This document shows positions 18,901 to 40,234 of a stretch of 40,394 nt of DNA, one piece after another; the first letter of the stretch is position 1; each line of letters starts with the position of its first letter. A model generated the notes under the pieces. The model saw only the letters and a program-made list of their open reading frames with translations. It made no database searches and was not told the origin of the DNA. The DNA is from a virus, in the IMG/VR virus record IMGVR_UViG_3300020442_000974, positions 1 to 40,394 of that record; one strand, 5' to 3'. Both the position numbers and the translations under genes were made by a program.

Positions 18901-21900
18901 AGGGAACAAATTAGTAGTTGAAACCTGACCTTGAACATTTGAAGTAATGTTTCTAGCAGATTCGAGCACCTCAACGTTACCTGGTTCAGTATACCAAGTG
19001 AATCCAGTGCTAACACCACTAGAAGCGATTGTTCCTGTTCCCGCAGTTAAACCAGAAACAGTATTACCATCAGCAAAAGCAGAACCAGTTACAGGACCAA
19101 TATAAAGTTCAAGATTTTCTTCATCCCACTCTAAAATAGTTGCAGTTCCACCACTACTAGAAATTGCAGTTTCACCGACAATATAAGATCCACCACTGAA
19201 TCCAGTAAGAGTAATTTTTTGTGCCGTTGTCTTCTTCTTAACATCAGTTGTAATCGAGTCATGAACAATATTGTTGATCATTTCATCAACAAAACTGTTG
19301 TATACATAAGCACCTGAACCAAATTGAGAATTAACAACATTTGTCAATTCTTCTTTATAATAATTCAAGTTATAAAGAATATTCTTAGATGCACTTCTAG
19401 CAACTTTATCACCAGGTGCGAGAATATCTACTGCAATTTCTACAAGTTCACGCATTCTCCAAACAACTTGATTAATATCTGTAGTAGATTCGGAATCGCG
19501 ATATGCTTCTTCGTTTGTGTATTGTGCAGCGTACTGATTTCCAGTTACAGAGTTACCTTGAGTATACAATTCATTTCTGATTGCTCGCTCAGCAAGAATC
19601 TTAATTTTCTCAACAGAGAACACTGTTGCGAGAAGTTCATCTTCAACATGATTTAATGTGCCATCAGAAGTTAGATAAGTTTCAATTGCTGCAATTGTGC
19701 TATTATTACCGCCAGTTTGAAGGTCGGAAATAATACCCAACATAATTAGTTTCAAATCTCTTTGACACTTAGTTTCCCCTGCAGTTCCACCAGGATAAGA
19801 GAAGGCACTATAAGGAGTTCCGTTCAAATCATAGGTAAACTCATTGGTAGTCATACCAGTGATTTCTTCAGCGATATACTGACGGTTGAAATACAATCTA
19901 TCGCCACCAACATTAAAGTCCTCTCCAGTAGGAGCAATAATATCATTGATTGTTGTAACCAAGGTATCAATTGCAGACTTGACATTGGCGCATCCGCCAG
20001 CATCATTAGTAATACCCCAATCACCAACAATAAGATTATCTGTGTTTGTATCATCGAGATCACCAGTAATCGCTTGCTTAGCATAGTATGCTAAACGTTC
20101 ATGAGCGTATACAGACTGCCAAACTTGTAAGCGAATATGCAGAAGTTCTCCGCTTCCACCAATGTAGAATTTCGCTGCTTGAACAGTATCTTCATTACCA
20201 CCACGCTCAATATCATTAGCGATTGCATCCAAGATGAGACCCAAATCAGTCTTACAACGTAAAGTACCATCTGTGCTGCCACCATTTTGGTTTCTAGGCA
20301 TATCCTGAGCAAGAGAGGGATATCTAGAAAGCATATCAGCAGCCGCTTTATCTACGATAGCGCCACGATTAACTCTAATCAGACCAGAAGCGTCTCTGAA
20401 TCTATATTGTGCATCTTCATCAATTTGATTGGTATAAATTTCATCATCACCAGCACTATGATAATCCACGGTGAATGGAGTCTCACTAAATGCATCTACT
20501 GTTCCACCAAGTGACTCAACTGCAGGAGAAACTTTAGTGACACTTGCCAGGTGATCAACAGGAGTGGATGCATTTGCATTAGTTAAAGTATCGGTAAGAA
20601 TATCAAGAAGGTTTTGAGCAGTAGACCAAACATCAGCACAATCTGAAAGACTGTAATCAAGAACAACAACTGCATTAGACAGAGCAGAAACATATGTGTG
20701 AGCATATTGTTGATTTACAGGAGATGCACCAACATTTACTGTGATTGTAGTCTGGGAAACTGCAGTAATTGGCAGAACTGCATTATTTGCTGGGTCGGTG
20801 GAGCGAGGATATGCAATCTGACGCTCATTACCATCATCATCACAAGTGAATGTAATACCACCAGTCAACAATCTAACTCTATTAGCAGTAGTAAGAGAGT
20901 GTGATCCAATTGTAATTACCAAATCACCCGTAGCAGCATCATAAGTAGCACCCGTAGGTGTAAATTGGTTCAATACACCAGTAGTAGAATCGGTGATAGT
21001 TGCATCAGTGAATTGCGTCAATCCATGAGAACCTTGAACTGTCCAAAGAACATTGTTAATGACATATTGAATCATATCATTAACTTTTTCGTAAGCGAAT
21101 AATGTTTCTCTAATTTCGCCTTCAATATAAGACAAGGCAACAGGATTCTGAGTTCTATCAACATAGAATGCAGCAGCATCCCACATATGATTATTAGAAC
21201 CATTTCTCAAGTCTTGTACTAATGCGTTCAGAATGTCGCGAATATCATCCTCACAATTAACTCTTTGATCGGCAATGACACTGTTATCAACTGCAGAGAC
21301 AAATGTGTGGACATACGCACCACCAGTAATAACAGCATCAGTCTCAGCACTAACGAATGTATGTGCATATTGATCATTTGCGCCAGAGACACCAACATTA
21401 ACAGTTACTGTTCCAGTTTGTTTAATCAGAGCACCAGAAGTCGCAGAAACAAAGGTATGAGTAGACGTATCACTAGAGACACCTACGTTAAGAGTAATAG
21501 TATTAGTGGTAACACTTTGAATCTCAACCCATTCGCCCCTAATAGGATCAGTTTGTCTAGGATATGTGTGATTTGTAGCGTTACTATCATAAGCACATGT
21601 AAAGGTTAAAGAATTATCAGCAATCTGAATTCTATTACCAGCAGACAATCCATGACCGTTTGAAGTAATTACCAATTCACCTGTTGTGGGGTTATAAGTT
21701 GCTCCCGTGATATCGGCGGTTGTAGTACCAACAGCAGTTACTGCAATTGTAGTATTATATGATGGGTCTGTGGAACGGGGATATGTGTGTTGGGACTGAT
21801 TACTGTCTTGATCACAAGTGAATGTAAATCCACCTGTCTTAAGTTTTAATTTGGTTCCCGTATTAATGGTGTGGTTTGCAATTGTCATTACAAAATCACC

Positions 21901-24900
21901 AGTTGCAGGATCGTATGTTGCGTTACTGGGTTGGAAATAAACGAAAGGTGAAGTGCCAACATTAACTGTCAGATTATTTGCACTTGCCGAAACAACTGGT
22001 AATGCAACTTGCTTAGAAGCAGGATCTGTAACACGAGGATATGTAACTTGAGTCTGATCATTATCACTAGAACATGTAAATGTCAGAGCATTATCATTAA
22101 TCTTGATTCTGTCCTTTTGAATCGTAATACAATTGGTTACTGCAGAAACAAACGTATGTGTATACTGTTGTCCTGAAGGAGAAGCACCAACATTAACTTC
22201 AAAAGTATTTGTAGTTACATTAGATACGGTCAACCATGCACCTGCTGCAGGATCAGTTGCGCGAGGATAATCATGGTTACTAGCGTTAGAGTCCTGAGTG
22301 CAAGTAAATCTGATACCACCAACCTTAATATTGATCTTCTGCCCATTAGTAACAGAATGACCATAAGCGGTGATAACTAATGCTCCAGTTGCAGCATTAT
22401 AAGTTGCACTATTAGGAGTTACATTACCACCATTTGTCAACAGATTACCACTAACTGTCATGGACAGTAAACCAGTTGTTGCATCGTAAGTGGCACCCGT
22501 TGGGGTATATCTTGTACCAGGAACAACCAGTTCTGGATATCTGGTTCTCATCTGATCAACAACTTCTTTCTTGATAAAGTCGGAGTTAGCGACGATCAAA
22601 TTAGCAGCATCATAGTATCTCTGAGAATTACCAGTAAATCCAGTAACTACAGCAGAACCGTTTGCATTTGTCGTTCTGAGAATAGCATCATTATTAAAAT
22701 CTTCACCATTTGTGAATCCTTCTGCACCAGACCAATCTTCAGTATAGGTTTGACCATAAGATCCATCAAAGTGAATCAGAAGTCTTGTATTAGTATCACC
22801 TTGAACGATTCCAGTAGGAGCAACGAAGGTTGCAGTATAACGAGCATTGTTAGAGAATCTAAAGTCATCAATGTAACCAGCAAGAACTTCAGAACCAGCA
22901 TAGTTAGCACCAATTCTGATTGGTTTTGCACCATAGTTACTAGAATCGGTTCCAGTTCCTACTTCTGCACCATTAATAAAGATCTTAGCAGTGGTTCCTG
23001 TTCTAGAAACTGCAATGTGAGACCATACATCGTTACTCAAAGTTGTTAAACCAGAGGTTACTAGATCGCTACCATTACTGTTCCAACGAACTTGTCCCGC
23101 TTCAAGATAAAGGCGACCAGCAACTTCAGTTGCACCAGCAGCACGCATATCTACCAGAGTTTTAGTTCCTGAGAGTGATGTGGTGAAGGGTTTGACCCAG
23201 AACTCAATTGTATAGTTACCAGTAGCAACGCCAAATTCTGCACTAGATGGAATACTTACATATTCATCAATAGGAACTGCACCAACGTTTACCGTAATTG
23301 TTGTGGAAGTTGTAGCACTGATAGCAAGTGCCGAACCAGACGCAGTGTCGGTAGAACGTGGATATGCTTTATTGGTTGTATTGTTATCCTGAGCACAGGT
23401 AAATACAACCCCATCGTCTGCGATTGTTACGGTATTTGATGTGGTAAGACTGTGAGTTCCAATTTCAAGAACTAAAAGTCCTGTCGCAGGATCATAAGTG
23501 GTTCCTGTAGCAGCGGTAAATTGACCACTAGCACCATTACCAGCAGTAATCGCATCTGTAACACCACTCACAAAAGTATGGGGAGCAACACCAGGAGACA
23601 ATGCTAGGCAACCAGTACCATACTTTTGATTGTAAGTATTGATCGTTGCATTTGTAAATGTTATTGCATGATAATCCTGACCATTAGATTGTGTTCTACC
23701 AATCTTACCAAGATAAATGGTGCCTTTTGCTTGATTGTATCCAATAACTTCTGCCTTAGTATCTCTGGTTCTAATTACTTGACCAGCAGCAAAGAATCCT
23801 TCACCAATTCTATTTTTGAATGCAAGTTTTCTAATACGGGCAGGTTCGCTAATACCAAAGTCTCCAGAGTTATTACCATAAGAGATTTTATAGTTACGGA
23901 TGACTTCACCATCAGTTAATGCACCAGAAGCATTATCATAAGGAATAATATTTGTGCTGACAATCTCATTTGATGGGAATTGTGAATCAATTGCAGTGCT
24001 ATTGTCGGCAAAATCAACCAAATTAATTTGCGATTCTGAAATATTATCCAATACGATATTTGGATAAGTTTGAGCAGCAATTCGGTTAAACAGAAGACCC
24101 GAGAAACTAGAACCATCAGAAATGTTAACTTGTCCGATAGCAGCATTAGTAGCAGGATCCGTATATACAGCAGTTGCTGTAACACGAGCAACTACACGAG
24201 ACTGAGCGCCAATAATAATATCATTTAATTGAATATCATAAAGACCTGGGGTAGATTGATAAGTACCAGCAGTCTTACTGAGTGTTAATGCATTAGTTAC
24301 ATTAATCTCTGTTCCATATACAGGGAGATCTTCTAAATGGGAAACTGCGGTAGTTCCTTGAGTTCCTCTCGTAACTGTCAGTTGTGTGTAATCATTGTTT
24401 TCAACAATATTAGTTACCAAAACAATTTCAGATCCAAACTGATAGCTCTTACCAGCAATAAATGTTCCAGTGGGAGGTGCAGTTTCAGCATTTTGACTAC
24501 CACTTGCAATAATTTCAACAGATGTGGTAGAAGGACCGATACTGTAACGAAGTTGTCCAAGAGGTGTTTCTTGTCCTCTATCAAGGTTAATTTGTTCAAC
24601 CTTTGCAGTATCATTATCAAAGTTTTTCACCTGCTCACCAAAGACAAACAGACCAAGATTGGTGATAGGAGTAATTGTTCCAAGGTTAGCGTTAAAACCT
24701 GTCGCACTAACGTTAACTAATTCATTAGCAATAAAGGTTCCTTCCGTAACAAAACCTTCAATAGTATCACCAATGACATTTGTCACTGTCAGACGAGCAC
24801 CCGATTGACTACCAACCATGGTGTTACCAACATTGGGGAAAATACCACTTTGATTAGTAAATGTATATGTGTCAATATCAATTTGTTCAATTTGAATGTT

Positions 24901-27900
24901 GACATACTTGACACTTGCAGGAGGTGCAGGAGGTTCTGCAAATACAATAGAGTCACCTTGAATTTCAAATGCCACACCAGGTGTTTGTACGACACCGTTG
25001 AGAATAATCATCAACTGGTTTGCATTAGCAACAATATTATCACCATCAACAGTTAAGGGGAAAGAAATTCTTACACCGTCAAAGAGGTTGGAAATATCAT
25101 CCAGTCTTTGAACAACAGATGTCAGAATGTTTTCCGATGAAGTCAGTCTCTTTTGACGGAAAAGAACCTCAGTATTATTAAACTCAGAATAAATGGGTTC
25201 AACTAGAGAGAAACTTTGAATATTGGGAACAATTGCTTCTCTAGCAAGTTCAACTGACTTAGTTAATTCAAAATCAGTTTCTTTATTAGGAATAGAACCA
25301 TATTCATTAAGATTCAGTTCACCAAAGACCTTAAAGGACGCTGGGTGAACATTCTTGATAAGGATTTCTTTCCACTCATCAATAGATACCGCAGACTTAA
25401 CCGCATAAGAGAAGTCTTGATAATAATAGGAATCTTGAATCTTTTGAATAATTTCAGAGGGTTTACCAACGTCATCGATAAACTGACCTGTAGTTCTCGT
25501 GATAGATCCAATCTCAAGAACACCCTTAGCAATATTCAAATCACTAATGACACCAGAAGATTTGGAAATAACACCTGTGATTCTTTGACCTTCAATAAAG
25601 TCTCCAGTGTAATCAACAATCTTAAGGACTCTAGGTCCAACTTGCCAACCATTATTTGTAGAAACAAATCCTTGTGCAGTTGCAGTTTCAAAACTATCGC
25701 CCTGATATACAAGTTCACCTTCAAGGAAGGTAGAGGTAATAACGTTAGCAGTTGCTGCACCACCGAAAGATTCAGTCAATACTTGCTGACGACCAGTACC
25801 TGCATTAGAGAACGTAATAGCATCACCTAAAGCAGCGTTTGCTGCGGTAATCGCAAGTTTTAATTGATCGGGCTCAAGAGAATTTGCAGTTCCTGCAATT
25901 GCATAATAAGTAGTGTTTCCATTTAATCTACCGATAGCACCAGATGCTAAGGGGAATTCAGTTCCTTCACCAGTATCAACTACATTTAATGTAACTTCAG
26001 ATCCATTGGGGATACCATGAGGGAAAGCAAACTGAAGAAGACCCAAATCGAGGTTTACAACATAGTTGAAAGAAGATCTTAAAGATACGGAAGGTGTAGA
26101 AGAATAACCAGCACCAGGATCCTTAACTTCGATTTGATCTAAACGACCGTTCTTAATAGATGCAACAGCAGTTGCACCAGATCCACCACCACCTGTAATA
26201 ATAACAGCAGGTGCTTGAGAATATCCAGATCCAGGATCAGTGACAGTAATACTGCTAAGGATACTCGTAGATGTTAACTGCGCGTTGATTGGGAAAGTAA
26301 TCTCAGGACGTAATGTATAGTCATGAGGATAATCATAACCAAAATTATTGTTCTTGAGTTTTTTAATCTTACCAACATTGGTGCCTTTGGTAAAAATAGA
26401 TGCGCCGCTACCAAATGCAGGGATAACAACATCTAATTCTGCACCAGATCCTGTAAGACCTGCACCCAAGATACCATCAATAGCTTCAATATCAATACTT
26501 GCAGTTGTATATCCTTTACCAGGTGATGTAACAACAACTTCTTGAATCTGACCAGGGATATTTACACCCTCATCATCAGTTCCATCTGCAACAGTAATTC
26601 GTACAAATCCACCTTCACCATCACCAGCAATAGGAACACTATTATAAGTTCCTACAGCATATTCAGTTCCAGGTTCATTAATTTGAACTCTTTCAATTTG
26701 TCTATTGGATGAGATAGTTGTAACAACTGGGAGACGTGTGTAGAATCCACCAGGATTAACGATACGAACATCGGAGATAGATCCTACCGCTTTAACAGAA
26801 CTCGTGCTGTAGGACGCCTGAATGATGTCTGCTGCGCCTTCTGGTTCATTAACCAGAGGGAACTTGATTGTATCAGCACCACGAGTAATCGTGGCACCAG
26901 AAACACCACTGATTGTGAACGTTCCAACATAAGGAGAGTCTACAACATCCAAGTAACTACCAGTAGTTACAGGAGAGTCATCACCAGTTCTAGATGGATC
27001 GAAGTAATATGAAATATTGGTAACAATATTCCTATCAACTTTGAGTTTAACTGTTGGTGTAGGAACACCTTGACCAGTTACACCAGGAGTTCCCACACGT
27101 TCAATCGAGTTAAACGAATATTCGAGTTTATTGAGGTTATCTTTGGAGAACGAAAGGTTTCCACCTGCCAAAGAAGAGTGACTGACATCAAAGAGATATT
27201 GATGCCCATAGTACATCTTAAGGACAGGAGATTTGACAAAAACATTAACAGAACCAGCACTTGTGGCGGGATTAGAAACTGCTGCCTGTGGAAGTTTATA
27301 TGTAAATTCCAGAGGACTTACAACAGTATTAACTGGGAAAGATCCATCATACTCATCATAAACTACGCCACCAACTTCTTGCGATGGGTTGCCATCAATA
27401 AAGATCATTTCACCTTCAGACAGGTAATGACGGGTTCCTGTAATAATATAAACAAGATCACTATTCGCAACTGCAGTTGCTTGAAGGGTTTTCTGCAAGT
27501 TTGCAATTAATGTAATCTTAAGAACACCTGTAAGATTGGTAATTTGTGCAGTAGTATATGCAGCGTTAAACGAAATATCTCCAGAATTAATATTAATGAC
27601 AGATCCAGGAATGAATGTAGAAGATCCAGAAATTTCATCAATTCTGATTGAATAATCATCATCACTGTAAGGTTTAAACTTAGCAAGTTCATCTAAGTTG
27701 TTGCTACCACCTTCAGGATGATTAAAATCATTCAGATCAATATCAAATGTTCCAGGTGTTGTATTATTAATTTGAGGGAATGTGAAAGAAGCAATCTCAT
27801 TAATATCATTAGGAATGGGTCCTACAATACCATAAGTGCTTTGCTCACTAAACTGTTCTGTTGACAGTAAACCAAGATTTAGATCATTCGACCAACTATT

Positions 27901-30900
27901 GTTATTAACTGCAAGATATACTTTATTATTAGCGGTATCTTGAGAGATAATATATCCACTATTAACAAAACTAGATCCATTACGCAGAACTAATTTAGTT
28001 CCAACAGTAAACTTGAACGACTGGTTAATGGTAAGTTCCTGAACATTATCAATTTTAATTGTCGGAGCAACTTTGAAATAGTACTTGTTTTTAACATTTG
28101 CAGTCGCCTTCAGTTTCTGAGATCCAGGAGAAGGAACCGTTGCGGTTCTTGATCCCCAAACATCTTGAGCGTATGTAAGAGCCTCAGTATCTTGAGGCAT
28201 GTTAATCGAAGCATCATCAAAGTCAAGATTCTGGAATCCAATTGCTGCGAGAACAGCACCAGATGTGCTAACAGTAAGACTAGAACCAATTACAGGAGTA
28301 ATAGCAGTTCGGACAAAACCAACTCCAGTATTAGTTTGTGCTGCATAAGTTCCAATTCTAGCAGCAAGAGCATCTTTATCTGCCTTCAATCCCCAACCAT
28401 TATAATCAATATAATCATATCTGTTAAGGTTTGTAGTAAACCAAGCATCATCAACCCAGTCAAAAGTTAATCCAAATGCACCTGCTGTGGGGAATGCTGT
28501 TACATCAGAAGGAACTGTGGGAGTTAGTGCTCTATTTCTCAATCTCAGATTGGTAACAATATGCTGTCCTTGCTCATTACTACGGAATTGACCCGTAGTT
28601 CCACTTCTACCAGGAATATTACCAAAGTGTAAATCCTTTCCACCAAGGGCAGTGTTGGTGACAGATCCAGTAAAGACCTGAAGACCATTTACATATCCAG
28701 TAAAAGTATCACCGACTTTCTTAAGTCCAATAAATTGCCAGGTATTATCAGCATACATTGTTGTTAATGTAGACTGAAGTGCAGAACCTGCTGCATTAAT
28801 AGTAGTGGAGTTATTAGTAACTACTAACTGCAATTCTCCGCTACTAACATCATAATACATCCAGAGACCACCAGTAGTATCAGTAGCATCACCGATAGCA
28901 AATAAAGTTTCTTGAGTCTGTGATAAAGTTCCACTATTACTGGAATCTTTATACAGCATGTACTCAATAGTAAAGTCACCTGCTAATTTAGTTCCTAACT
29001 CAGCAGCGGTAAATTTAATATTGGTATTTTCCCAGTTCGAGGGTTGAGCAACATCATAACCAAAGAATTGAGCCTTACCATCAGTAACTAGAATACCTTG
29101 ATTACTAGTTCCTGTAACTACGGGTGTATAGTGAGTTGTAATGTCGGAAGTTGTTGCTCCAGCAAACGTTACAAGGAATTCATTTCTATTCCAAGAAGAT
29201 TGTCCGAAAGCATAAACATCACCCGAATTATCGGCAGTAACAGACTTAACTGTAATACCTTCAATATTGTTCTTATTAAACTCATTAGATGTATGATTTT
29301 TAATTTTACCATCATATCCAAGTTTAACAGTTTCAACAGTTTTAAGTTGATTTGTAGAATTAACCTTTGTCAGAGCAACATTTAAATCACCGAAAATGTC
29401 GATATTGGATCTAGGTGCCATTGTAATGGTGCTACCTGTCAAATAACGATAATTCCAGAGCAAATCACCATTAGTATTAACCTTACCTACCCAGAAACTA
29501 TCCTTTGTAGTATCATCAGACTTCAATCTCAATGTTGCACTAATATATGCCTCATCAAACTCATCCACTACCATGGAAGTGTCCATGAAGGAATATAATG
29601 TATTTGTATAGTTCTTAACCCATTCAATTGCAATGCTAGATGTAGACAATATTGCCTTACCAAAAGAAACATCAATATCAGCAGCATTTGCTGTAGATGC
29701 AGATTCCATGGTGAAGTAAATATCATCACCAACTTTTTCCATAGCAGTCAATTTCTCAGAACCGCTAGAAGATGCAACTTTTCTCTTGGCAACAAAACTG
29801 CCAGTAGTATCAACAACTCCAATAAAGGCATCATATGGATTAGTGGAGTTAGTATTTGTAAATCCACCAATAACAACTCTAGTATCAGAGTACTTAAGGA
29901 CAGAAGTAATTCTATCTTCACGAGAAGAACCAGAAATACCAGCATATCCTCTCTGATATGTGAGAGTTGCACTTAATCCATTATCTGCCTGAACATACTT
30001 TGCAAGGTAAATATCAGGATTATAAGAATCCAAAATTGAAGCATTTGGTTTATTTTCACCAACAATCCAGATATCATTACCATCAACAGCAAGTTTGATA
30101 TGTTCTGTGCTGAAAGTTCCTGTTCCGCTTTCTAAAGTCTTCTCCCATTCCTTTAAACCAGTAGAAGATAGTTTTGCTAAGAAACCAACTCCGTTACCAC
30201 CAGCATCCTTTGTTCTACCACAAATAAATGTTTCTTTATCAGCGTTAGTGAAACTATCATTAATAACTAAATCATCATTGTTATCGATAGTAGAAACAAA
30301 ATAATCTGCTTTCTTAAAGACCTGTGGGTGAGAAATAATAACTCTTGGATTTGTAGTATACGAAGAACCCGAGTTAATAATATTAACTGTATCAATCGAT
30401 CCAACGCTGGTTACAACTGCCTGAAGACTTGCAGAATTACCATCACCATCTAAAGTAATGACAGGGGGAATATCACTGTTATATCCAGATCCAGTTTGAG
30501 TAATTACAACTTCCTCAACACCTTTAAGTTGACGAACAACAAATGTTTTGTTCGTATTATTCATGATAGGTGTGTAATCAACATACACCGTATCACCAAC
30601 AATCAAATTATGTGGATTAGATGTTTGAAGAATACCAAAATTATCTCCACTGACGTTTTCAAAATTATAACTGGAAACAGTCTCACCTTTAATTCTAGAA
30701 ACTCTAGCAGAGACACCAGTACCATCAGTATCCGTATTATCGAACACTAAACGGTCATTGACTTGATAAGAAATTCCAGGGTTTTCAACTGTAAACCCAG
30801 TTACACTAGCATCTTCAAATTTAGTAATTGTTTCAACTTCAATATCAACCTTAGAGTCAAATTTGACTTTGGGGAAATAGTCAAACAATTGTAATGGAGA

Positions 30901-33900
30901 CTCTTCAAAGATTTGATCAGGATCATCAATCTCTGCTTGATCAATGACACCGCTCCTATCTTCGTCTTCCACTTCAAATAACAAATTATCACCATTCTCT
31001 AATGTCAACGCATTAGTAGATGCGTTAGGAGCACGCTCAACGTCAATATCAACATTTTCATAAGGGTCACGATAACGGACAACACCAGTAGGAATATTTT
31101 GCTGAACTGCAGTTGCACTTAAGTTCCACTTATCGACAACTGAATTATAACTAGGACCAAGAATATATGGGAATACTGCATTACCTTGTTCAGTATTATC
31201 AATAGTTACAAAATAGCAATATCTACCAGTTGGGAATTGTGGTGTCTTACAGAAACGACCGTTATATTGATCAAGATCACCTAAACCAAAAACATATTCA
31301 TAATCTTCAACAAATCTACCCGCTGCTTCATCGGTCAATAAAGGACCAGCAGTTCTAACAGGATATGGATTTGTTTGTGCATCAAAAATCAAAGTGGGTT
31401 TAACACGATATGAAGAATTCAATCGAGTAATAGTAGATCCCTGATCTGTAGGATCTTGATATCCATAAGGACCGTAAATGGGGTTGCCATCAAACGCCCA
31501 TCCAATAATCGGGGAGTGTTCCAGAGAATCATTTTGCTCTAGAGTTTGACCAATTGTACTGCCAGTCTGACTAATATAAAGGTTGTCTCCCAGGATATAA
31601 CGTAATCTCTGAGGATTTGAAAGGTGAGCATATTCACCACCATATTGATTATTAAATCCTTCAAAAACACTACCCTTAGCAGAATCAATAGTAGCAGTTT
31701 CTTGTAAGTTATAAGTCCACTGGAAGACAGTGGCATCAAACAAAGCATCTTGACCAACTGCAGTCAGATTAATAACAGTCGTTCCTTGAGAATATCCAAT
31801 ACCTCGGTTAACAATTTCAATACCAGTAACTCTGCCAGCATTCTCACCATCAGTATCAATTGTTGCACGAGCAACCGCACCAAAACCATCACCCTGAATA
31901 CCAATTTCAGGTGCAGTAGTATACCCAGATCCAGCAGAGATGATAGCGATCGAAATAATACGACCATTTTGTACAATTGCTTGTGCAACTGCACCAGAAC
32001 CAGAACTCAATACAACACTGGGTTTAGATGTATAAGATGCACCACCGTTAGTTACTGATACACTCTTAATAGGACCACGAACTTCTGCAGTTGCTGTAGC
32101 ACCCGTTCCACCGCCTCCAACAATAGTAATGGAAGGTTGTGAAGTGTATCCTGTTCCACCATCGTTAATCAGAACTCTAGATACAACACCTTTAGTGATA
32201 ATTGCAGTTGCTGCTGCACCTGATCCGCCGCCACCGACAATTGAAATTAGAGGAGAAGATGTATATCCACTTCCACCATCAGTTACAACAATTTCACTGA
32301 GAGATCCATTAACAACTACTGATGCGGTAGCACCAGATCCACCACCACCACTAATCGTAATTGCTGGTGGTGAAGCAGCATCATAATCTTTACCTGCGTT
32401 AGTGATAGCAACATCTGTTACAGCACCAAAAGTCTTTTTATCAGTAGACTTATATGACCAAGCAGAAACACCATTAATCCAAGTTCCAATAGGACCAGAA
32501 CTAATCTCATTCTTAGTAGAGATAGTAGTTGCCAATCTGGGGAATCTGTTCAGTTTTCTCTGGTTGCCAGGAAGGAGTGCCGATCCAGGGAAAGGTCCAA
32601 TATTATAGTTTGGAATACCAGTAGATGCCACATACACATAATCATCATTAAAGAACGAGTTTTGAATGTTCGTAGTATATGGAGAAATAGTGTTATTGAT
32701 AGCAGCAGTTTCCGACTTACCTTTATTAAGGTCAATAGATACCAGAATATTTCCCTGAGGAACGACTGTAGCGGGTTGTGGTAATTGATATTGGAAAACT
32801 GTAGTGCTATCTCTAGAAGTTACTAGGAACGTTCCGTTATAGATGATTGGATTTGCACCGTAGATAGTAACCTGGTCACCAACCAAAAGACCATGTGGAT
32901 TACTACAAGTTACAGTTGCAGATCTATTATTAATACCACCGAAAGTAATTGAAGAAATTTCAATCAGTTTTTTAACATTATACAACCAAGTATTCAATTC
33001 AGGTTGAGTTCCTGTTCCACCCAATTTTGAAATCGTTAATTTATCACCAGGAAGATAATAAGATCCAGTATCTGTAAGAGTTGTCTGTTGAGCATCAACA
33101 ATACCAACAACGTTCATTACAACTTCTTGAGAAGTTCCTTTGTTAATAAAAACTCTAAAGTTAGAAGATACCTCAGTTGCAGAATCCCAATCTTCAACGA
33201 TACCATTTACTGAACGTGTACATTCAATAAACTGGTTAAGAGATTTTTCTTTATATTGAACAACTTCACTATTACCAATTAAGAATTCACCATTTCTTTC
33301 TGGCCAACCAATTGTAGAGTCAACTGTAATAATACTATCTTCAGTTCCAAGAGGTTCAGCAAGTTTTGTTTTATAAGGAACCGTAAAAGAACCTGTAATG
33401 GTTTCTTCAGACAATACCAATTCGTAAATATCTGTCTCAGAAGTTCTAATTGCAATATAGTTTTCAACAAGAGCACTAGCCGCTTGAATATTTGGATCGG
33501 CAATATCTAAATCTTGCTGTAAAAGACCGTCTTGAATATCAACAGGATTACCACTAACTAAAGTAGCACGCAGAATAGTATCAATAGACCAAGTTGCGGC
33601 AGATGGTTTAATGATCTGATCTTTTGGATATGAAATGCTTACCTGTTCGCCATAAAGAAGCTTAAACAGATAAGAAATACTGAAACTAGTTCCCTTAGTG
33701 GAATAGAAATCTTTGATCGTCTTAATTGCATTACGAACATTAATTTCTTTGTAATCTAATTCAGGAACATCAGGTAAAAACTGTTCGGTATACTTATCTA
33801 ACAAACGTTTGACAAAAAGTGCATCCAGACACTTTACTTCGGTATCCAGAGATGCAGATACTGCAGTAGTATCATTTGAGAAAACTGCATTACCATCCTC

Positions 33901-35796
33901 AGTATATGAGGTAATACCACTAGCAGCTCTAGCACACCCAACAAATTGTGCTTTTTGATATCCAGTACCAGAAAGGTTTACGGTAAATCCCGTAATCTCA
34001 TTCAGACCAATTTCAGCAGATGCCTTTGCTTGTGGGGGATCCTGAATGACAATGGTAGGTGGATTTGCCGAAGAATACCCAGCACCGAATTCGGTAATAT
34101 TAATATCCGTAATTCTACCATTAAAAATAGCAGCAGTTGCTTTAGCACCTGTGCCACCAGCATAATTACCTTGACCATCAACTCTATTATCAACAATAAA
34201 AACAGAGGGGATATCATCATATCCACTACCACCGCTTAAAAGTTCGATATTAGTAACTCTACCATTAGAGTCAACAGTGGTTTCTAAAACTTGAGCACCA
34301 ACAGGATCAACAATTGCAACTCTAGGGGTAGTCTCGTATCCCTGACCAGCATTTAAAATTGTAATCGAAGTAACCTGACCATCAGTCAAATTTGCTCGAA
34401 GTGCGGCGCGAATTCCATTCTCACCAGTAGGTTCATCAATATAAACTGTAGGTGCTGTAGAATACCCTTGACCGCCATTAGTTACAGTAATAGTACCACT
34501 AAGAGACCCCGCAAGAATTTGAGCAGGTCCTAAAGTAGCGCCACCAGGTTGTGTAAAAGTAATTCTAGGGGTAAAAGTATACCCACTACCAGAACTAAGC
34601 GTTTCTAGACCCGTTACAGAACCGTTGGTAACGGTTGCTTTAAGAACAGCAGGTTTAGAACCACTTTTTGTGGGAGTTTGAATAGTAACTGTTGGTGGGT
34701 TGGTATCACTATAACCCTGACCACCTTCCAGAAGTGCAAGATTCTTAATACCATTAACAAGAGCGGTTGCAGATCCACCACCACCAGTTGTAGAATTAAT
34801 AGAAACCTGAGGAGGATACTCAAAACGATATCCAGATCCAGTATTGTTGATGGAAATACTGCTTAACTCGCCGTTATCGTTTACCCTAGCATATCCAACT
34901 GCATCATTACCAAACGAAGGGATAGGTGCCTCAACCGAATACAGAGAAAGGAATCTACCATTGATGGGAGCATTGGCAAAGATAAATTTATCGCCATCGA
35001 TGAAGAAATCAACTTTAGGAACTAATAATGTATTATCATATACAGCAAGAACATATTCATCAACAATAGGTTCATAAACATTACCATTTCTGGTAAGTTT
35101 AAATTCAACTTTATTATCACCAAATGCACCAGAAAGGTTATCGATAGCAACAATAGTATTTTCTACAAAACCATTCAGATATGTAATATAAGTAGCAACG
35201 CTGTCATCAGAAGGTAATCTGGTTCTAGGTGCATTAGTGAATACAATATCAGTACCAGAGACAGTATAATCGACTGCAGGAATTAATACTTCACCATAAA
35301 CACTTACAATCAAATGCTGTGCGGACGGAGGAGCAATTGGATTGTCTTGAGACGTTAAACCAAAACTGGTAGTAGAACCGTCAAATAAATCGATAGGAGA
35401 TGCTAAATTTGTCCACTTAAGTTTTACCTGCTCATAAGAGATACCAGGGGACAGAGCAATATTAGGAGAACTAGTGGTGCTCTCGTAATAGATGACCTCA
35501 TCACCGATTAAAATCGATCCATTTTCAGATAAAAACTGTTCAATACTTTCTACAACAATTTTTGTAGACTTATCAGTAATTGCTTCTACAATTTTTGTCT
35601 TTCCATCAAGGATACCGATGTCCAATTTATCGATATCAAGATAATTTAAGAAATTATTGATAATATTTTGACCAGCACCCGTTTTTTCTTGGGACTGATA
35701 ATAATACTCCAGAAATCTATTAAAAAGAGGATATTCCTCTTCAAGAAAATTCGGAGATTGTTGGACAATCGATTGAGATACCTTGTTAATATTCAT
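15976..35796 (-). CDS. 7: Giant gp7-like baseplate wedge protein, 6,606 aa mosaic
   Basis: A single uninterrupted frame of 19.8 kb (roughly 700 kDa) starts at an ATG preceded by AAGAG, eight bases after gp6. Residues about 656-736 contain DFYSTKGTSFSISYLFKLLY, matching T4 gp7 (DFYSTKGIEASYKFLFKVLY). Residues about 3442-3500 (YAVKSAVSIDEWKEILIKN, then VHPASFKVFGEL) resemble the following VHPVGF block of gp7. T4 gp7 is about 1,032 aa. Other regions, by approximate residue: NGVLQ-type beta units 138-292, 3550-3645 and 6300-6465; GSGY repeats 300-617, 1126-1343, 3000-3247 and 6519-6572; YHYH-like 1420-1555; propeller-like 1833-2240; LamG-like 2258-2425 and 4175-4330; Cys/YPR repeats 4074-5035; helical repeats 4846-5415. 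It lies between genes 6 and 8, as gene 7 does in T4. The gp7 assignment rests on two blocks and synteny; the rest is probably surface-exposed binding domains. Confidence 0.85.
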   Translation of the reverse strand: MNINKVSQSIVQQSPNFLEEEYPLFNRFLEYYYQSQEKTGAGQNIINNFLNYLDIDKLDIGILDGKTKIVEAITDKSTKIVVESIEQFLSENGSILIGDEVIYYESTTSSPNIALSPGISYEQVKLKWTNLASPIDLFDGSTTSFGLTSQDNPIAPPSAQHLIVSVYGEVLIPAVDYTVSGTDIVFTNAPRTRLPSDDSVATYITYLNGFVENTIVAIDNLSGAFGDNKVEFKLTRNGNVYEPIVDEYVLAVYDNTLLVPKVDFFIDGDKFIFANAPINGRFLSLYSVEAPIPSFGNDAVGYARVNDNGELSSISINNTGSGYRFEYPPQVSINSTTGGGGSATALVNGIKNLALLEGGQGYSDTNPPTVTIQTPTKSGSKPAVLKATVTNGSVTGLETLSSGSGYTFTPRITFTQPGGATLGPAQILAGSLSGTITVTNGGQGYSTAPTVYIDEPTGENGIRAALRANLTDGQVTSITILNAGQGYETTPRVAIVDPVGAQVLETTVDSNGRVTNIELLSGGSGYDDIPSVFIVDNRVDGQGNYAGGTGAKATAAIFNGRITDINITEFGAGYSSANPPTIVIQDPPQAKASAEIGLNEITGFTVNLSGTGYQKAQFVGCARAASGITSYTEDGNAVFSNDTTAVSASLDTEVKCLDALFVKRLLDKYTEQFLPDVPELDYKEINVRNAIKTIKDFYSTKGTSFSISYLFKLLYGEQVSISYPKDQIIKPSAATWSIDTILRATLVSGNPVDIQDGLLQQDLDIADPNIQAASALVENYIAIRTSETDIYELVLSEETITGSFTVPYKTKLAEPLGTEDSIITVDSTIGWPERNGEFLIGNSEVVQYKEKSLNQFIECTRSVNGIVEDWDSATEVSSNFRVFINKGTSQEVVMNVVGIVDAQQTTLTDTGSYYLPGDKLTISKLGGTGTQPELNTWLYNVKKLIEISSITFGGINNRSATVTCSNPHGLLVGDQVTIYGANPIIYNGTFLVTSRDSTTVFQYQLPQPATVVPQGNILVSIDLNKGKSETAAINNTISPYTTNIQNSFFNDDYVYVASTGIPNYNIGPFPGSALLPGNQRKLNRFPRLATTISTKNEISSGPIGTWINGVSAWSYKSTDKKTFGAVTDVAITNAGKDYDAASPPAITISGGGGSGATASVVVNGSLSEIVVTDGGSGYTSSPLISIVGGGGSGAAATAIITKGVVSRVLINDGGTGYTSQPSITIVGGGGTGATATAEVRGPIKSVSVTNGGASYTSKPSVVLSSGSGAVAQAIVQNGRIISIAIISAGSGYTTAPEIGIQGDGFGAVARATIDTDGENAGRVTGIEIVNRGIGYSQGTTVINLTAVGQDALFDATVFQWTYNLQETATIDSAKGSVFEGFNNQYGGEYAHLSNPQRLRYILGDNLYISQTGSTIGQTLEQNDSLEHSPIIGWAFDGNPIYGPYGYQDPTDQGSTITRLNSSYRVKPTLIFDAQTNPYPVRTAGPLLTDEAAGRFVEDYEYVFGLGDLDQYNGRFCKTPQFPTGRYCYFVTIDNTEQGNAVFPYILGPSYNSVVDKWNLSATAVQQNIPTGVVRYRDPYENVDIDVERAPNASTNALTLENGDNLLFEVEDEDRSGVIDQAEIDDPDQIFEESPLQLFDYFPKVKFDSKVDIEVETITKFEDASVTGFTVENPGISYQVNDRLVFDNTDTDGTGVSARVSRIKGETVSSYNFENVSGDNFGILQTSNPHNLIVGDTVYVDYTPIMNNTNKTFVVRQLKGVEEVVITQTGSGYNSDIPPVITLDGDGNSASLQAVVTSVGSIDTVNIINSGSSYTTNPRVIISHPQVFKKADYFVSTIDNNDDLVINDSFTNADKETFICGRTKDAGGNGVGFLAKLSSTGLKEWEKTLESGTGTFSTEHIKLAVDGNDIWIVGENKPNASILDSYNPDIYLAKYVQADNGLSATLTYQRGYAGISGSSREDRITSVLKYSDTRVVIGGFTNTNSTNPYDAFIGVVDTTGSFVAKRKVASSSGSEKLTAMEKVGDDIYFTMESASTANAADIDVSFGKAILSTSSIAIEWVKNYTNTLYSFMDTSMVVDEFDEAYISATLRLKSDDTTKDSFWVGKVNTNGDLLWNYRYLTGSTITMAPRSNIDIFGDLNVALTKVNSTNQLKTVETVKLGYDGKIKNHTSNEFNKNNIEGITVKSVTADNSGDVYAFGQSSWNRNEFLVTFAGATTSDITTHYTPVVTGTSNQGILVTDGKAQFFGYDVAQPSNWENTNIKFTAAELGTKLAGDFTIEYMLYKDSSNSGTLSQTQETLFAIGDATDTTGGLWMYYDVSSGELQLVVTNNSTTINAAGSALQSTLTTMYADNTWQFIGLKKVGDTFTGYVNGLQVFTGSVTNTALGGKDLHFGNIPGRSGTTGQFRSNEQGQHIVTNLRLRNRALTPTVPSDVTAFPTAGAFGLTFDWVDDAWFTTNLNRYDYIDYNGWGLKADKDALAARIGTYAAQTNTGVGFVRTAITPVIGSSLTVSTSGAVLAAIGFQNLDFDDASINMPQDTEALTYAQDVWGSRTATVPSPGSQKLKATANVKNKYYFKVAPTIKIDNVQELTINQSFKFTVGTKLVLRNGSSFVNSGYIISQDTANNKVYLAVNNNSWSNDLNLGLLSTEQFSEQSTYGIVGPIPNDINEIASFTFPQINNTTPGTFDIDLNDFNHPEGGSNNLDELAKFKPYSDDDYSIRIDEISGSSTFIPGSVININSGDISFNAAYTTAQITNLTGVLKITLIANLQKTLQATAVANSDLVYIITGTRHYLSEGEMIFIDGNPSQEVGGVVYDEYDGSFPVNTVVSPLEFTYKLPQAAVSNPATSAGSVNVFVKSPVLKMYYGHQYLFDVSHSSLAGGNLSFSKDNLNKLEYSFNSIERVGTPGVTGQGVPTPTVKLKVDRNIVTNISYYFDPSRTGDDSPVTTGSYLDVVDSPYVGTFTISGVSGATITRGADTIKFPLVNEPEGAADIIQASYSTSSVKAVGSISDVRIVNPGGFYTRLPVVTTISSNRQIERVQINEPGTEYAVGTYNSVPIAGDGEGGFVRITVADGTDDEGVNIPGQIQEVVVTSPGKGYTTASIDIEAIDGILGAGLTGSGAELDVVIPAFGSGASIFTKGTNVGKIKKLKNNNFGYDYPHDYTLRPEITFPINAQLTSTSILSSITVTDPGSGYSQAPAVIITGGGGSGATAVASIKNGRLDQIEVKDPGAGYSSTPSVSLRSSFNYVVNLDLGLLQFAFPHGIPNGSEVTLNVVDTGEGTEFPLASGAIGRLNGNTTYYAIAGTANSLEPDQLKLAITAANAALGDAITFSNAGTGRQQVLTESFGGAATANVITSTFLEGELVYQGDSFETATAQGFVSTNNGWQVGPRVLKIVDYTGDFIEGQRITGVISKSSGVISDLNIAKGVLEIGSITRTTGQFIDDVGKPSEIIQKIQDSYYYQDFSYAVKSAVSIDEWKEILIKNVHPASFKVFGELNLNEYGSIPNKETDFELTKSVELAREAIVPNIQSFSLVEPIYSEFNNTEVLFRQKRLTSSENILTSVVQRLDDISNLFDGVRISFPLTVDGDNIVANANQLMIILNGVVQTPGVAFEIQGDSIVFAEPPAPPASVKYVNIQIEQIDIDTYTFTNQSGIFPNVGNTMVGSQSGARLTVTNVIGDTIEGFVTEGTFIANELVNVSATGFNANLGTITPITNLGLFVFGEQVKNFDNDTAKVEQINLDRGQETPLGQLRYSIGPSTTSVEIIASGSQNAETAPPTGTFIAGKSYQFGSEIVLVTNIVENNDYTQLTVTRGTQGTTAVSHLEDLPVYGTEINVTNALTLSKTAGTYQSTPGLYDIQLNDIIIGAQSRVVARVTATAVYTDPATNAAIGQVNISDGSSFSGLLFNRIAAQTYPNIVLDNISESQINLVDFADNSTAIDSQFPSNEIVSTNIIPYDNASGALTDGEVIRNYKISYGNNSGDFGISEPARIRKLAFKNRIGEGFFAAGQVIRTRDTKAEVIGYNQAKGTIYLGKIGRTQSNGQDYHAITFTNATINTYNQKYGTGCLALSPGVAPHTFVSGVTDAITAGNGASGQFTAATGTTYDPATGLLVLEIGTHSLTTSNTVTIADDGVVFTCAQDNNTTNKAYPRSTDTASGSALAISATTSTTITVNVGAVPIDEYVSIPSSAEFGVATGNYTIEFWVKPFTTSLSGTKTLVDMRAAGATEVAGRLYLEAGQVRWNSNGSDLVTSGLTTLSNDVWSHIAVSRTGTTAKIFINGAEVGTGTDSSNYGAKPIRIGANYAGSEVLAGYIDDFRFSNNARYTATFVAPTGIVQGDTNTRLLIHFDGSYGQTYTEDWSGAEGFTNGEDFNNDAILRTTNANGSAVVTGFTGNSQRYYDAANLIVANSDFIKKEVVDQMRTRYPELVVPGTRYTPTGATYDATTGLLSMTVSGNLLTNGGNVTPNSATYNAATGALVITAYGHSVTNGQKINIKVGGIRFTCTQDSNASNHDYPRATDPAAGAWLTVSNVTTNTFEVNVGASPSGQQYTHTFVSAVTNCITIQKDRIKINDNALTFTCSSDNDQTQVTYPRVTDPASKQVALPVVSASANNLTVNVGTSPFVYFQPSNATYDPATGDFVMTIANHTINTGTKLKLKTGGFTFTCDQDSNQSQHTYPRSTDPSYNTTIAVTAVGTTTADITGATYNPTTGELVITSNGHGLSAGNRIQIADNSLTFTCAYDSNATNHTYPRQTDPIRGEWVEIQSVTTNTITLNVGVSSDTSTHTFVSATSGALIKQTGTVTVNVGVSGANDQYAHTFVSAETDAVITGGAYVHTFVSAVDNSVIADQRVNCEDDIRDILNALVQDLRNGSNNHMWDAAAFYVDRTQNPVALSYIEGEIRETLFAYEKVNDMIQYVINNVLWTVQGSHGLTQFTDATITDSTTGVLNQFTPTGATYDAATGDLVITIGSHSLTTANRVRLLTGGITFTCDDDGNERQIAYPRSTDPANNAVLPITAVSQTTITVNVGASPVNQQYAHTYVSALSNAVVVLDYSLSDCADVWSTAQNLLDILTDTLTNANASTPVDHLASVTKVSPAVESLGGTVDAFSETPFTVDYHSAGDDEIYTNQIDEDAQYRFRDASGLIRVNRGAIVDKAAADMLSRYPSLAQDMPRNQNGGSTDGTLRCKTDLGLILDAIANDIERGGNEDTVQAAKFYIGGSGELLHIRLQVWQSVYAHERLAYYAKQAITGDLDDTNTDNLIVGDWGITNDAGGCANVKSAIDTLVTTINDIIAPTGEDFNVGGDRLYFNRQYIAEEITGMTTNEFTYDLNGTPYSAFSYPGGTAGETKCQRDLKLIMLGIISDLQTGGNNSTIAAIETYLTSDGTLNHVEDELLATVFSVEKIKILAERAIRNELYTQGNSVTGNQYAAQYTNEEAYRDSESTTDINQVVWRMRELVEIAVDILAPGDKVARSASKNILYNLNYYKEELTNVVNSQFGSGAYVYNSFVDEMINNIVHDSITTDVKKKTTAQKITLTGFSGGSYIVGETAISSSGGTATILEWDEENLELYIGPVTGSAFADGNTVSGLTAGTGTIASSGVSTGFTWYTEPGNVEVLESARNITSNVQGQVSTTNLFPYPENFSAAGFVRQGVDVNDNLAASATGTSGSAPDGTQTADQLQPNLYIGQHWISKAYNISAFETFDSGNVKFDSGTETFDTGNIGTAETQTYTYSVFLKDDGSSYGDNVRLEVSLDNALATRQQAYFDIDLSDGTYGTIFQPQGGITVDAYGVIPYGNGWYRAYLTLTFGFGFGEIEKKIFINGAGFYQGTNQDFGPFAWGYKLNKGALDPYTAQSGQIFYSDAEFNIKNFILDELEVFITSALSGTLTSPSTNAGFFSFYDSTVSSDYTVESIDRLVRNNFDIIRGQLQQDSFYTNLTTINGITVPSKVYEDGSRIIPVGIAGGVNNTDYLYGTSSDNYGEIESLSVNEGTIVQIYKRFRIDGTITDGPFTMGESVQKQGDAAITGVVYGFTEDENFKYLDVRVTAGTWAITDTIIGATQSTSAQISAIEDRIQINKVKGSFTNDIIFKGYTSGNTASPTGYLTASAAILDNSGGSLTVDTETLVGTFEKTATLFPDNSELYFDVVKYDGLDVAVGDRVNSAGHVRLGISVQSGLNQFTVGDKLHKVNSNFQDANFFGYITEVDLDNNLIYAIMVGTNSFGIGDFVGSYGPLNDPFNPIGYAQVSTKIDVAGAASGIIRDIRTIGIDKRLYISDVRGTFSSRDGIVGPDSYKSAIKTLVNLKGRVKRYFRGFDGTQTNFKLTIENGTPYFPDPAGHMLIFINGVLQPPGATFAYTAFSDEIQFTEAPDLGASFTGFYVGKLRQLDDISFEFDSLRQSFNLKRDDVFYSLTLTEGVQSTTIRPENNIIVSLNGVLQEPGVGFEIVGSRIIFSEIPRFGSTFVAFSYVGSEADVDAAEVVPPVEAGDFIDIQGETEDREVAVIESSNSLITFDYLGSVFGQNARGTALLTSGTIDKVQITSGGSGYTSRPTVRIDSISGFDGNIRALVGVGAVEVSATGTGYQNPEVVVETSVPDDWTAPDLSQYGEELVDPETP
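19565..21256 (-). repeat. Three helical repeats within the giant protein
   Basis: Three copies of about 65-70 residues begin near 21253, 20254 and 19772. Each opens with Cys-x2-Asp (CEDDIRDILNALVQDLRNG, CKTDLGLILDAIANDIERGG, CQRDLKLIMLGIISDLQTGG). An Asn-containing turn follows, then a second helix pair (A-x3-Y, then E-x2-T-x-F-A-x-E-K-like residues, then AI). They are the only strongly helical parts of the C-terminal half of an otherwise beta-rich protein. Linkers before copies one and two share R-Y-P-x-L motifs (RTRYPELV, LSRYPSLA). Confidence 0.7.
20690..23590 (-). repeat. Cys/YPR beta repeats, six copies, within the giant protein
   Basis: Six units carry C-x2-D-x-[ND]-x5-YPR-x-TD: CAQDNNTTNKAYPRSTD (near 23390), CTQDSNASNHDYPRATD (22300), CSSDNDQTQVTYPRVTD (22070), CDQDSNQSQHTYPRSTD (21815), CAYDSNATNHTYPRQTD (21597) and CDDDGNERQIAYPRSTD (20848). 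Most units also have G-A-T-Y-D-x-A-T-G-x-L-x-I before and I-T-V-N-V-G followed by YAHTFVSA after. The spacing in the tandem part is about 75-85 residues. A LamG-like domain lies between copies one and two, and a helical repeat between copies five and six. I do not recognise a named family. Confidence 0.75.
22800..23260 (-). other. LamG-like jellyroll domain (second copy) in the giant protein
   Basis: Residues about 4175-4330 read as a concanavalin/LamG fold: YTIEFWVKPF, a glycine-rich turn, NDVWSHIAVSRTGTTAKIFI followed by NGAEVGTG, then AGYIDDFRFSNNARYT. These are the usual landmarks of the LamG/concanavalin-like class, which typically binds glycans or serves as an adhesion module. Confidence 0.75.
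26065..26780 (-). repeat. Glycine-rich GSGY repeats, third array, in the giant protein
   Basis: Residues about 3000-3247 hold repeats of the form valine-rich strand, [DN]-P-G-x-G-Y, P-x-V or P-x-I strand, then GGGGSGATA (for example DPGSGYSQAPAVIITGGGG and DPGAGYSSTPSVSL). The first units (NPGGFYTRLPVV, EPGTEYAVGTY, SPGKGYTTASI) are more divergent. The array ends about 195 residues before the second gp7-like block. Confidence 0.75.
28530..29010 (-). other. LamG-like jellyroll domain (first copy) in the giant protein
   Basis: Residues about 2258-2425 contain GDFTIEYMLYKD, GLWMYYDVSSGELQLVV, NTWQFIGLKKVGDTFTGYV followed by NGLQVFTGSV, and TNLRLRNRALTP. This is the same order of landmarks as the LamG-like unit at 22800-23260, but the two copies are strongly diverged. 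Confidence 0.7.
29080..30310 (-). other. Beta-propeller-like region in the giant protein
   Basis: Residues about 1833-2240 consist of repeated blades of the form D-x-[ILV]-x-[ILV]-x-G-x-T followed by [AG]-[FK]-[VL]-x-K-[LV]-[DNS]-x2-G-x-[LFK] (ETFICGRTKDAGGNGVGFLA, RVVIGGFTN, DSFWVGKVNTNGDLLW, DVYAFGQSSWN). This resembles SBBP- or NHL-type propellers. The number of blades cannot be set by eye. Confidence 0.6.
31130..31530 (-). other. YHYH-like domain in the giant protein
   Basis: Residues about 1420-1555 contain HSPIIGWAFDGNPIYGPYG, then LDQYNGRFCKTPQFPTGRYC and VFPYILGPSYNS, the conserved skeleton of the YHYH family. The namesake Tyr-His-Tyr-His is YCYF here. Confidence 0.75.
31770..32420 (-). 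repeat. Glycine-rich GSGY repeats, second array, in the giant protein
   Basis: Residues about 1126-1343 hold six regular units of about 35 residues: NAGKDYDAASPP, DGGSGYTSSP, DGGTGYTSQP, NGGASYTSKP, SAGSGYTTAP and NRGIGYSQG. The first three are followed by strands ending in GGGGSGA or GGGGTGA. This is the most regular of the arrays and is directly upstream of the YHYH-like domain. Confidence 0.8.
33945..34895 (-). repeat. Glycine-rich GSGY repeats, first array, in the giant protein
   Basis: Residues about 300-617 hold eight units marked by NTGSGY, EGGQGY, SSGSGY, NGGQGY, NAGQGY, SGGSGY, EFGAGY and LSGTGY, each followed by a proline-containing strand such as STAPTVYIDEP or DDIPSVFIVDN. The array lies just before the first gp7-like block. 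Confidence 0.8.
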
Positions 35797-39239: not shown

Positions 39240-39269
39240 ATTATACCTCACTAGGCATATAGTTGTCAA
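39240..39269 (-). promoter_or_regulatory. Perfect-consensus sigma70 promoter
   Basis: TTGACA (39269-39264) and TATAAT (39245-39240) on the minus strand are separated by 18 bases; both hexamers are exact matches to consensus. The promoter lies inside the last nine codons of the 67-residue gene, and the TAA of TATAAT is that gene's stop codon. It points into the non-coding region and the 72-residue gene. Confidence 0.8.
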
Positions 39270-39444
39270 CACATTCCCACTGCCATCCTATCGACTTGAT
39301 GTAATCGAAGCACGACATTCTTGGAGTACTTGGGAATGCATCTCCCCTGCTATTCCGAATCCCATCGATATACCTTTCCATGTCATATATGCTGTGGAAA
39401 GATCCTCTCAAAACCTCATGATTGTCGTAGATAGTGTAAAGCAT
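39241..39444 (-). CDS. Hypothetical protein, 67 aa
   Basis: The frame encodes MLYTIYDNHEVLRGSFHSIY followed by DMERYIDGIRNSRGDAF and an aromatic C-terminus (IKSIGWQWECVDNYMPSEV). It looks like a small globular alpha/beta protein; I do not recognise it. It starts ten bases after the 65-residue gene with no strong ribosome site and is probably co-transcribed with it from the promoter at 39689-39717. Its 3' end doubles as a consensus promoter for the downstream unit, which constrains the last nine codons. Confidence 0.7.
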   Translation of the reverse strand: MLYTIYDNHEVLRGSFHSIYDMERYIDGIRNSRGDAFPSTPRMSCFDYIKSIGWQWECVDNYMPSEV

Positions 39445-39454
39445 GATTGATCAG

Positions 39455-39652
39455 TTAGGGTGAATAAACGTAGTAACAATATCCCTCTGCTAGTAAGTAA
39501 CTGGCAGTATTAGAAAGTATCTCACAGTCCCAACATTGGTCAGTATCTAACAAGAACTGAAACAATGCTATTCCATCATCAAGGGAACACTGTTGTCGAT
39601 AGTAACTCTCTAAGAGTTGTTGATACTTAGGAGGACCTGTGATTGTTGTCAT
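39455..39652 (-). CDS. Hypothetical protein, 65 aa
   Basis: The frame encodes MTTITGPPKYQQLLESYYRQ followed by LFQFLLDTDQCWDCEILSN and a Tyr-rich end (AEGYCYYVYSP). The segment with F-L-L-D-T-x2-C-W, then A-x2-L-L-x2-G-Y resembles a small domain common in phages (LDTG-x-W, then a conserved A-x2-L-I-x-A-G), but the match is remembered, not computed. It begins 37 bases downstream of a near-consensus sigma70 promoter that carries an inverted repeat, so it is probably an early gene. The ribosome site is weak. Confidence 0.7.
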   Translation of the reverse strand: MTTITGPPKYQQLLESYYRQQCSLDDGIALFQFLLDTDQCWDCEILSNTASYLLAEGYCYYVYSP

Positions 39653-39688
39653 TTAGTACAGAACCTGTTTCTGAACCTCTACAAGGTT

Positions 39689-39717
39689 ATTGTATCATGT
39701 TTCTGATACTTTGTCAA
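39689..39717 (-). promoter_or_regulatory. Sigma70-like promoter with operator-like inverted repeat
   Basis: TTGACA (39717-39712), a 17-base spacer and TACAAT (39694-39689) with the TGn extension lie on the minus strand: 11 of 12 consensus bases. A perfect inverted repeat GTATCA-N6-TGATAC (39692-39709) fills the spacer and overlaps the -10, the classic place for a repressor site. It lies 37 bases upstream of the 65-residue gene. Confidence 0.75.
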
Positions 39718-39869
39718 GTGCCCCTGTATGACACTCAGAGGCGAATGATTAGCAATGGTGATGATACTGTCTCCGAGGTATTCTGAGGGGGTTGACATCT
39801 GTTAGGAAGCGTGCTAAGAGTGTAATTTACGGAGACATTTATCGAGGAATAAAACACACAAATAGGTTT

Positions 39870-39909
39870 TTTTCCACATTTCCACAAATTCCGCATTTAT
39901 TGTGGAAAA
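39870..39909. repeat. Cluster of three cyanobacterial DnaA-box-like sequences
   Basis: The plus strand has TTTTCCACA (39870-39878) and ATTTCCACA (39878-39886), and the minus strand has TTTTCCACA (39909-39901). TTTTCCACA is the consensus I recall for DnaA boxes of Synechococcus. Together they also form an inverted repeat TTTCCACA-N14-TGTGGAAA. The minus-strand hairpin is not followed by a T-run, so it does not look like a terminator of the 105-residue gene. Confidence 0.5.
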
Positions 39910-39916
39910 GTATCAT

Positions 39917-40234
39917 TTAGGGCGTTTTCGATTCTTTCTCTGAAATTCGATCATATGATCTCGCCATGTATCGAATAGGATCGTAGTTAGTTCCTTCATT
40001 GTTAGTTTGATGTATTGGAGTTGTTCTAACAATGTTGTCCCATTCTGTTGGGAAGATGAGAACACAGACGAAGTTTTGTTTGTGTTTGGAATGTTCTGCG
40101 ATTTCTTGGGGTTTGTCATAAGTTTTGATGCATAGAGTTATGTACTCTTCTGAGATGAAATTGATGAAACCCGTGTGTTCTTTCCAAGTGATAATTTCTC
40201 CTTGTTTGAAGTCATCGACGGTTTGCTTTTTCAT
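39917..40234 (-). CDS. Hypothetical protein, 105 aa
   Basis: The frame encodes MKKQTVDDFKQGEIITWKEH with a beta-rich first half (TGFINFISEEYITLCIKTYD, a small SH3-like pattern), then CVLIFPTEWDNIV and a polar C-terminus ending ISEKESKTP. The start lies within the last codons of the 54-residue frame upstream (23-base overlap). A 68-codon frame in another phase covers 39913-40119, but this longer frame has the more protein-like composition. Small proteins of this type are common in early clusters of marine T4-like phages; I cannot name the function. Confidence 0.75.
   Translation of the reverse strand: MKKQTVDDFKQGEIITWKEHTGFINFISEEYITLCIKTYDKPQEIAEHSKHKQNFVCVLIFPTEWDNIVRTTPIHQTNNEGTNYDPIRYMARSYDRISEKESKTP

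Follow-up and report, generated by a model that had tools for sequence, protein, structure and literature searches.

Putative host-type DnaA boxes are conserved beside an early promoter upstream of gp25-gp6 in T4-like cyanophages

T4-like cyanophages are among the most abundant viruses in the ocean, and the only prior pointer to how their replication starts is the single theta origin predicted for Syn9 (PMC2984593). Here, we show by sequence comparison that these phages carry putative host-type DnaA boxes that are conserved as DNA, beside a fixed sequence block and a strong predicted early promoter, upstream of gp25-gp6. This suggests that T4-like cyanophages use or manipulate the replication-start protein of their hosts. 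No earlier report of DnaA boxes in T4-like cyanophages was found in the literature searched, subscription papers being outside it, and we know of no need for DnaA in the replication of T4 or T4-like phages. Our preferred reading, to which we give a probability of roughly 0.4, is that the boxes form a host-DnaA module within a conserved control locus that would act either as a DnaA-assisted origin resembling T4 oriE or as an early-control locus.

The window, that is, the whole stretch of DNA analysed, is a 40,394-base IMG/VR fragment of Kyanoviridae (T4-like cyanophage), with Syn19 and Syn2 as its nearest annotated relatives (86% identity over the last 2.2 kb). Its gene order on the minus strand runs from small early open reading frames (ORFs) to gp25, gp6 and the baseplate genes. 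Half of the window is taken up by a single ORF of 6,606 codons beside gp6 (15976-35796, minus strand), which has a homologue of similar size in Syn19 (54654-74105). The initial annotation had claimed two exact copies of TTTTCCACA and one copy with a single mismatch at 39870-39909, in both orientations, and all three were found again at these positions. Box 1 (TTTTCCACA, 39870..39878, plus strand), which is aligned in Syn19, S-SM1 and S-SSM5, has one base in common with box 2 (ATTTCCACA, one mismatch, 39878..39886, plus strand), and box 3 (TTTTCCACA, 39901..39909, minus strand) is inverted relative to box 1 and is kept in the inverted-pair class of relatives. Between the boxes lies TCCGCAT (39890..39896, plus strand), which is kept in the lineage of the window and replaced in other lineages (S-PM2, Syn9, L072, L275 and L310). 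Both exact copies in the whole window are at this site, with 0.68 given by shuffles, and the signal is the cluster, because over its full length the window shows no excess of one-mismatch copies (17 seen against 17.4 expected). The description of the boxes as intergenic holds for the window, where no gap between same-strand ORFs in this part is longer than 39653-39916, but not for about half of the relatives, whose pair falls within the 3' end of the gene next to it.

Alignment of seven phages delineates an element upstream of gp25-gp6 that consists of a sigma-70 early promoter, a 27-bp block and the boxes. In the window, the block (TTGACATCTGTTAGGAAGCGTGCTAAG, 39792..39818, plus strand), identified by alignment and scans, is followed by an A+T-rich spacer (39819..39869) that leads to the boxes. 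The predicted early promoter, TTGACA-17-TACAAT (39689..39717, minus strand; 11/12 matches), points toward the small early genes and gp25, and the first ORF downstream of it belongs to PHROG_14990, of unknown function (39455..39652, minus strand). A second sigma-70 promoter, with a perfect TTGACA-18-TATAAT (12/12), is seen at 39240-39269 on the minus strand, at the end of ORF 39241-39444. Across relatives, a minus-strand early promoter scoring 11-12 of 12 occurs in 74 of the 111 elements with enough flank, shuffles scoring 10 at most, and most of the S-PM2-like clade does not reach this score. The promoter lies on the side of the block away from the boxes, at a variable distance of 24-111 bp from the block, and synteny places the locus upstream of gp25-gp6 in both clades. 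The block itself was also considered as a plus-strand sigma-70 promoter, which would provide an oriE-like antisense primer, and is not supported because the hexamer 17 bp on starts with TAAG in 120/120 cases, with no good -10; in the window this hexamer is TAAGAG, and the arrangement is not a convincing sigma-70 promoter. The adjoining gene on the box side (PHROG_522 / T4-like GC383, 39917..40234, minus strand) encodes 105 aa and is predicted to form a small beta barrel. It was set aside as a candidate initiator, the model having no meaningful solved relative, and a Pfam search with the GC383-type protein of the window gave no match.

A 161-base regional query matched 172 phage records; in 164 of these the match covered at least 80% of the query. 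Scans of IMG/VR returned 63 loci with a hairpin pattern, 40 with a strict block pattern and at least 119 with a looser block pattern that contained no box letters. The 122 elements counted here are the non-redundant, block-matching ones among the matches listed; they include loci first found by the hairpin scan, and boxes are still common in loci found by the block alone. Being related sequences, they are not independent counts, and among the matches listed 188 exact boxes fall within 143 nt after the block in these 122 elements, whereas dinucleotide shuffles averaged 0.76 and reached 3 at most. Exact boxes are present in 89 of the 122 block-selected elements among the matches listed, and the other 33 (about a quarter, S-TIM4 included) have none within 143 nt after the block; hence, the element can do without the boxes. 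The box-less group includes two chance matches of the block pattern (L285 and L299), as well as L269, L293, L296 and L312, which have at least one box slightly further off.

The initial annotation had proposed weighing the 9-mer here against the rest of the genome, and in whole relatives it proved to be rare and clustered at this site rather than equally frequent elsewhere. The site holds two of the three exact copies in Syn19 (175 kb), both copies in S-SSM5 (176 kb), two of four in Syn9 and three of eight in S-PM2, and a pair is also found at the site in S-SM1, S-CAM22, S-P4, S-IOM18, S-RIM8, S-RIM12, S-RIM50, ACG-2014a, ACG-2014b and P-SSM7. No box cluster was found in P-SSM4, P-SSM2, P-HM1 or T4, and none at the element in S-TIM4. 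P-SSM7 (GU071103) has a second exact pair at 46602-46631, in tandem 21 bp apart and about 600 bp from the first. Several relatives (S-RIM12, S-RIM50, S-RIM8, S-CAM22, S-IOM18 and ACG-2014a) carry a single extra TTTTCCACA approximately 227-230 bp away from the pair and close to where translation of the PHROG_522-type gene starts. Other viral contigs (L383-L462) often hold three clustered TTTTCCACA, and the cyanophage block accompanies them in only 2/120.

The arrangement of the boxes differs between lineages. Inverted pairs are spaced by 23 bp in 52 cases and by 31 bp in 18, with a spacing of 24 bp also seen, and their loops differ between lineages; the 31-bp class is that of the window, with the extra ATTTCCACA. 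Tandem pairs have a 12-bp spacing (TTTTCCACA-GGT-TTTTCCACA), and the number of boxes reaches four, with three in S-PM2 and four in L324. One-mismatch variants in the phage elements fall mainly at position 1, where ATTTCCACA is the commonest (22 copies), and then at positions 7 and 3. In S-SSM4 the third box is TTATCCACA, an E. coli-type box, by which the stem is broken and a DnaA box retained. Since number, spacing and orientation all vary, the kept unit is the 9-mer and not the hairpin, the opposite of the outcome that had been named as speaking against the boxes, namely their loss in relatives with retention of only a hairpin. At the place of the boxes, a different palindrome (TGATTCTCA type) occurs in 12/29 box-less relatives, compared with 2/90 boxed ones. 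This palindrome, found downstream of the block in L273, L296, L297, L314 and L321, pairs TTGATTCTCAATA with TATTGAGAA and looks somewhat Fur-box-like. Iteron-like GAGTACCTT / CTTTACAGTAT units follow the block in L279 (from 12778 onward), L274 and L295, and lags of 11 and 22 bp, again iteron-like, are prominent after the block in the box-less group only.

The identification of the 9-mer as a cyanobacterial-type DnaA box, first made in the initial annotation, is strongly supported by the oriC of S. elongatus, which has 11 boxes with the consensus TTTTCCACA (PMC3480399), and by the copies adjacent to dnaN, of which five cyanobacterial genomes have 6-10 exact ones. A tandem pair within 30 bp is present in 194/242 cyanobacterial genomes, and pairs with the phage-like 12-bp spacing are among those that cyanobacterial genomes hold. 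Beside dnaN, putative picocyanobacterial genomes, assigned as such by size and G+C, have [T/A/G]TTTCCACA, followed in several by CTACTACTACT, and the box forms near dnaN in these genomes are TTTTCCACA, ATTTCCACA or GTTTCCACA. The match to the host is not universal, because several genomes of 2.4-2.7 Mb have no boxes in the dnaN locus examined. The phage sites share with cyanobacterial oriC clusters the 9-mer, its variants and tandem pairs of similar spacing, but they have 2-4 boxes beside a phage early promoter, whereas oriC has 6-11 and dnaN as its neighbour. A trio-like CTACTACT repeat stands next to a box in host oriC and is absent from the phage elements listed. We infer that host DnaA very likely binds the phage boxes.

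Coding constraint had to be excluded as the source of this conservation, because in 37 elements the adjoining ORF, mostly of GC383 type (FST..AEIVEN), ends with the boxes as its final codons. In all 37 coding cases, a count restricted to elements with an exact inverted box, the codons TTT, TCC, ACA, GTG and GAA are invariant, and the codons between them vary, synonymously too (GAA/GAG). A further 43 elements, including the window, have a stop before the boxes or have the boxes outside a long ORF and still keep them exact, a few of these lying at contig ends or just under the ORF-length cut (L062, L068 and L344). No element was seen in which the peptide is kept with changed boxes. The exact boxes of the non-coding elements and the invariant codons of the coding ones indicate that the constraint acts on DNA, and coding constraint alone is ruled out by the frozen synonymous sites together with the non-coding elements. 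The pair can also be folded as a hairpin (z about -2.6 to -4), but the tandem classes form no such structure and S-SSM4 keeps its box with a broken stem; neither compensatory changes nor a T tract were seen. An RNA hairpin or terminator was therefore rejected, as the hairpin is not conserved, a T tract is lacking and Rfam gave no match. That the boxes have no DNA-binding function at all, and are kept for an RNA structure or for the peptide, is thus very improbable.

If DnaA does bind, it may act as a transcription factor only, activating, repressing or blocking RNA polymerase at the early promoter, which would tie the early operon to the level or state of host DnaA with no replication start. 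In favour of this, two thirds of elements have a near-consensus sigma-70 promoter at 24-111 bp from the block, and there is a precedent for the use of a host regulator by cyanophages, given that PhoB of WH7803 binds S-PM2d promoters (PMC10976474). Those Pho boxes are likewise host-regulator sites captured in cyanophage promoters, although they serve PhoB, whereas here the protein would be DnaA, at one conserved non-metabolic locus. We consider a purely transcriptional role somewhat unlikely: the boxes lie approximately 130-200 bp upstream of the promoter at a variable distance, unlike a classical activator site, and are dispensable in relatives with the same promoter (L199, L287 and L288).

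A role as a DnaA sink, in which multiplying phage copies would titrate DnaA until host initiation stops, appears distinctly unlikely. Two to four strong exact boxes per genome would become multi-copy after replication, and E. coli offers an established case of titration by boxes on a plasmid (PMC5835720), but the phage boxes are few and confined to a single, fixed regulatory locus rather than being spread, and a sink gains little because the DNA of the host is broken down early when Syn9 infects (PMC6359870). The E. coli datA site is likewise a DnaA-box cluster outside oriC (PMC5835720), but it is chromosomal and of high capacity, whereas the phage site is short and lies within a phage control region. 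Finally, another protein of the phage or the host might happen to recognise TTTTCCACA, for which the TGATTCTCA-type palindrome in the place of the boxes in box-less relatives could be cited; the agreement of the 9-mer, the ATTTCCACA and TTATCCACA variants and the tandem spacing with host oriC or box clusters makes such a coincidence decidedly improbable.

Over these alternatives we favour the DnaA-assisted origin or early-control locus. Among the roles raised in the initial annotation (an origin, a DnaA sink or a link between early transcription and the host cycle), an origin or early-control role fits best, because the early promoter is conserved and the locus is positioned like oriE. Host DnaA would bind the boxes soon after infection and help to open or remodel the DNA beside the early promoter, after which the early transcript would prime replication or the phage helicase machinery would load; the locus would then serve as a T4 oriE-like origin that DnaA additionally assists. 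Like the cyanophage locus, T4 oriE lies upstream of gene 6 and the baseplate wedge operon and has an early-mode promoter, which in the cyanophages is assigned by sequence. However, transcription of the T4 primer leads away from gene 6, the early promoter of the cyanophages points toward gp25-gp6, and oriE has its own direct repeats at 24-nt spacing in the coding DNA of gene 5. Neither TTWTNCACA nor a block-like sequence was found in the T4 oriE region, and homology beyond position was rejected, with no similarity in sequence or repeats. As the promoter directions differ, the likeness to oriE is positional. Temperate phage and plasmid origins (P1, lambda and iteron plasmids) carry host DnaA boxes near the start site, and they too are foreign replicons with host boxes, but they use a known initiator or host DnaB loading, whereas the cyanophages are lytic and have their own replisome.

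Replication from a DnaA-dependent origin at this site, the number and layout of the boxes having been rebuilt time and again in separate lineages, would be a more specific proposal, and we regard it as unlikely. Cumulative GC skew, a weak signal that mostly follows gene direction, reaches no minimum at the element and lends no support to an origin here, and local duplex stability is low in Syn9 and S-PM2 (30-60 bp) and ordinary in Syn19, S-SSM5 and P-SSM7. Neither of these two measures helps the origin reading.

A conserved host-DnaA site would offer a precise and testable place for the start of cyanophage replication. The host initiator would join PhoB and the other regulators of the host that cyanophages put to use, and a DnaA site could link infection to the cell cycle or light state of the host. 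If the DnaA-dependent origin is true, phage replication would be responsive to the host's own initiator.
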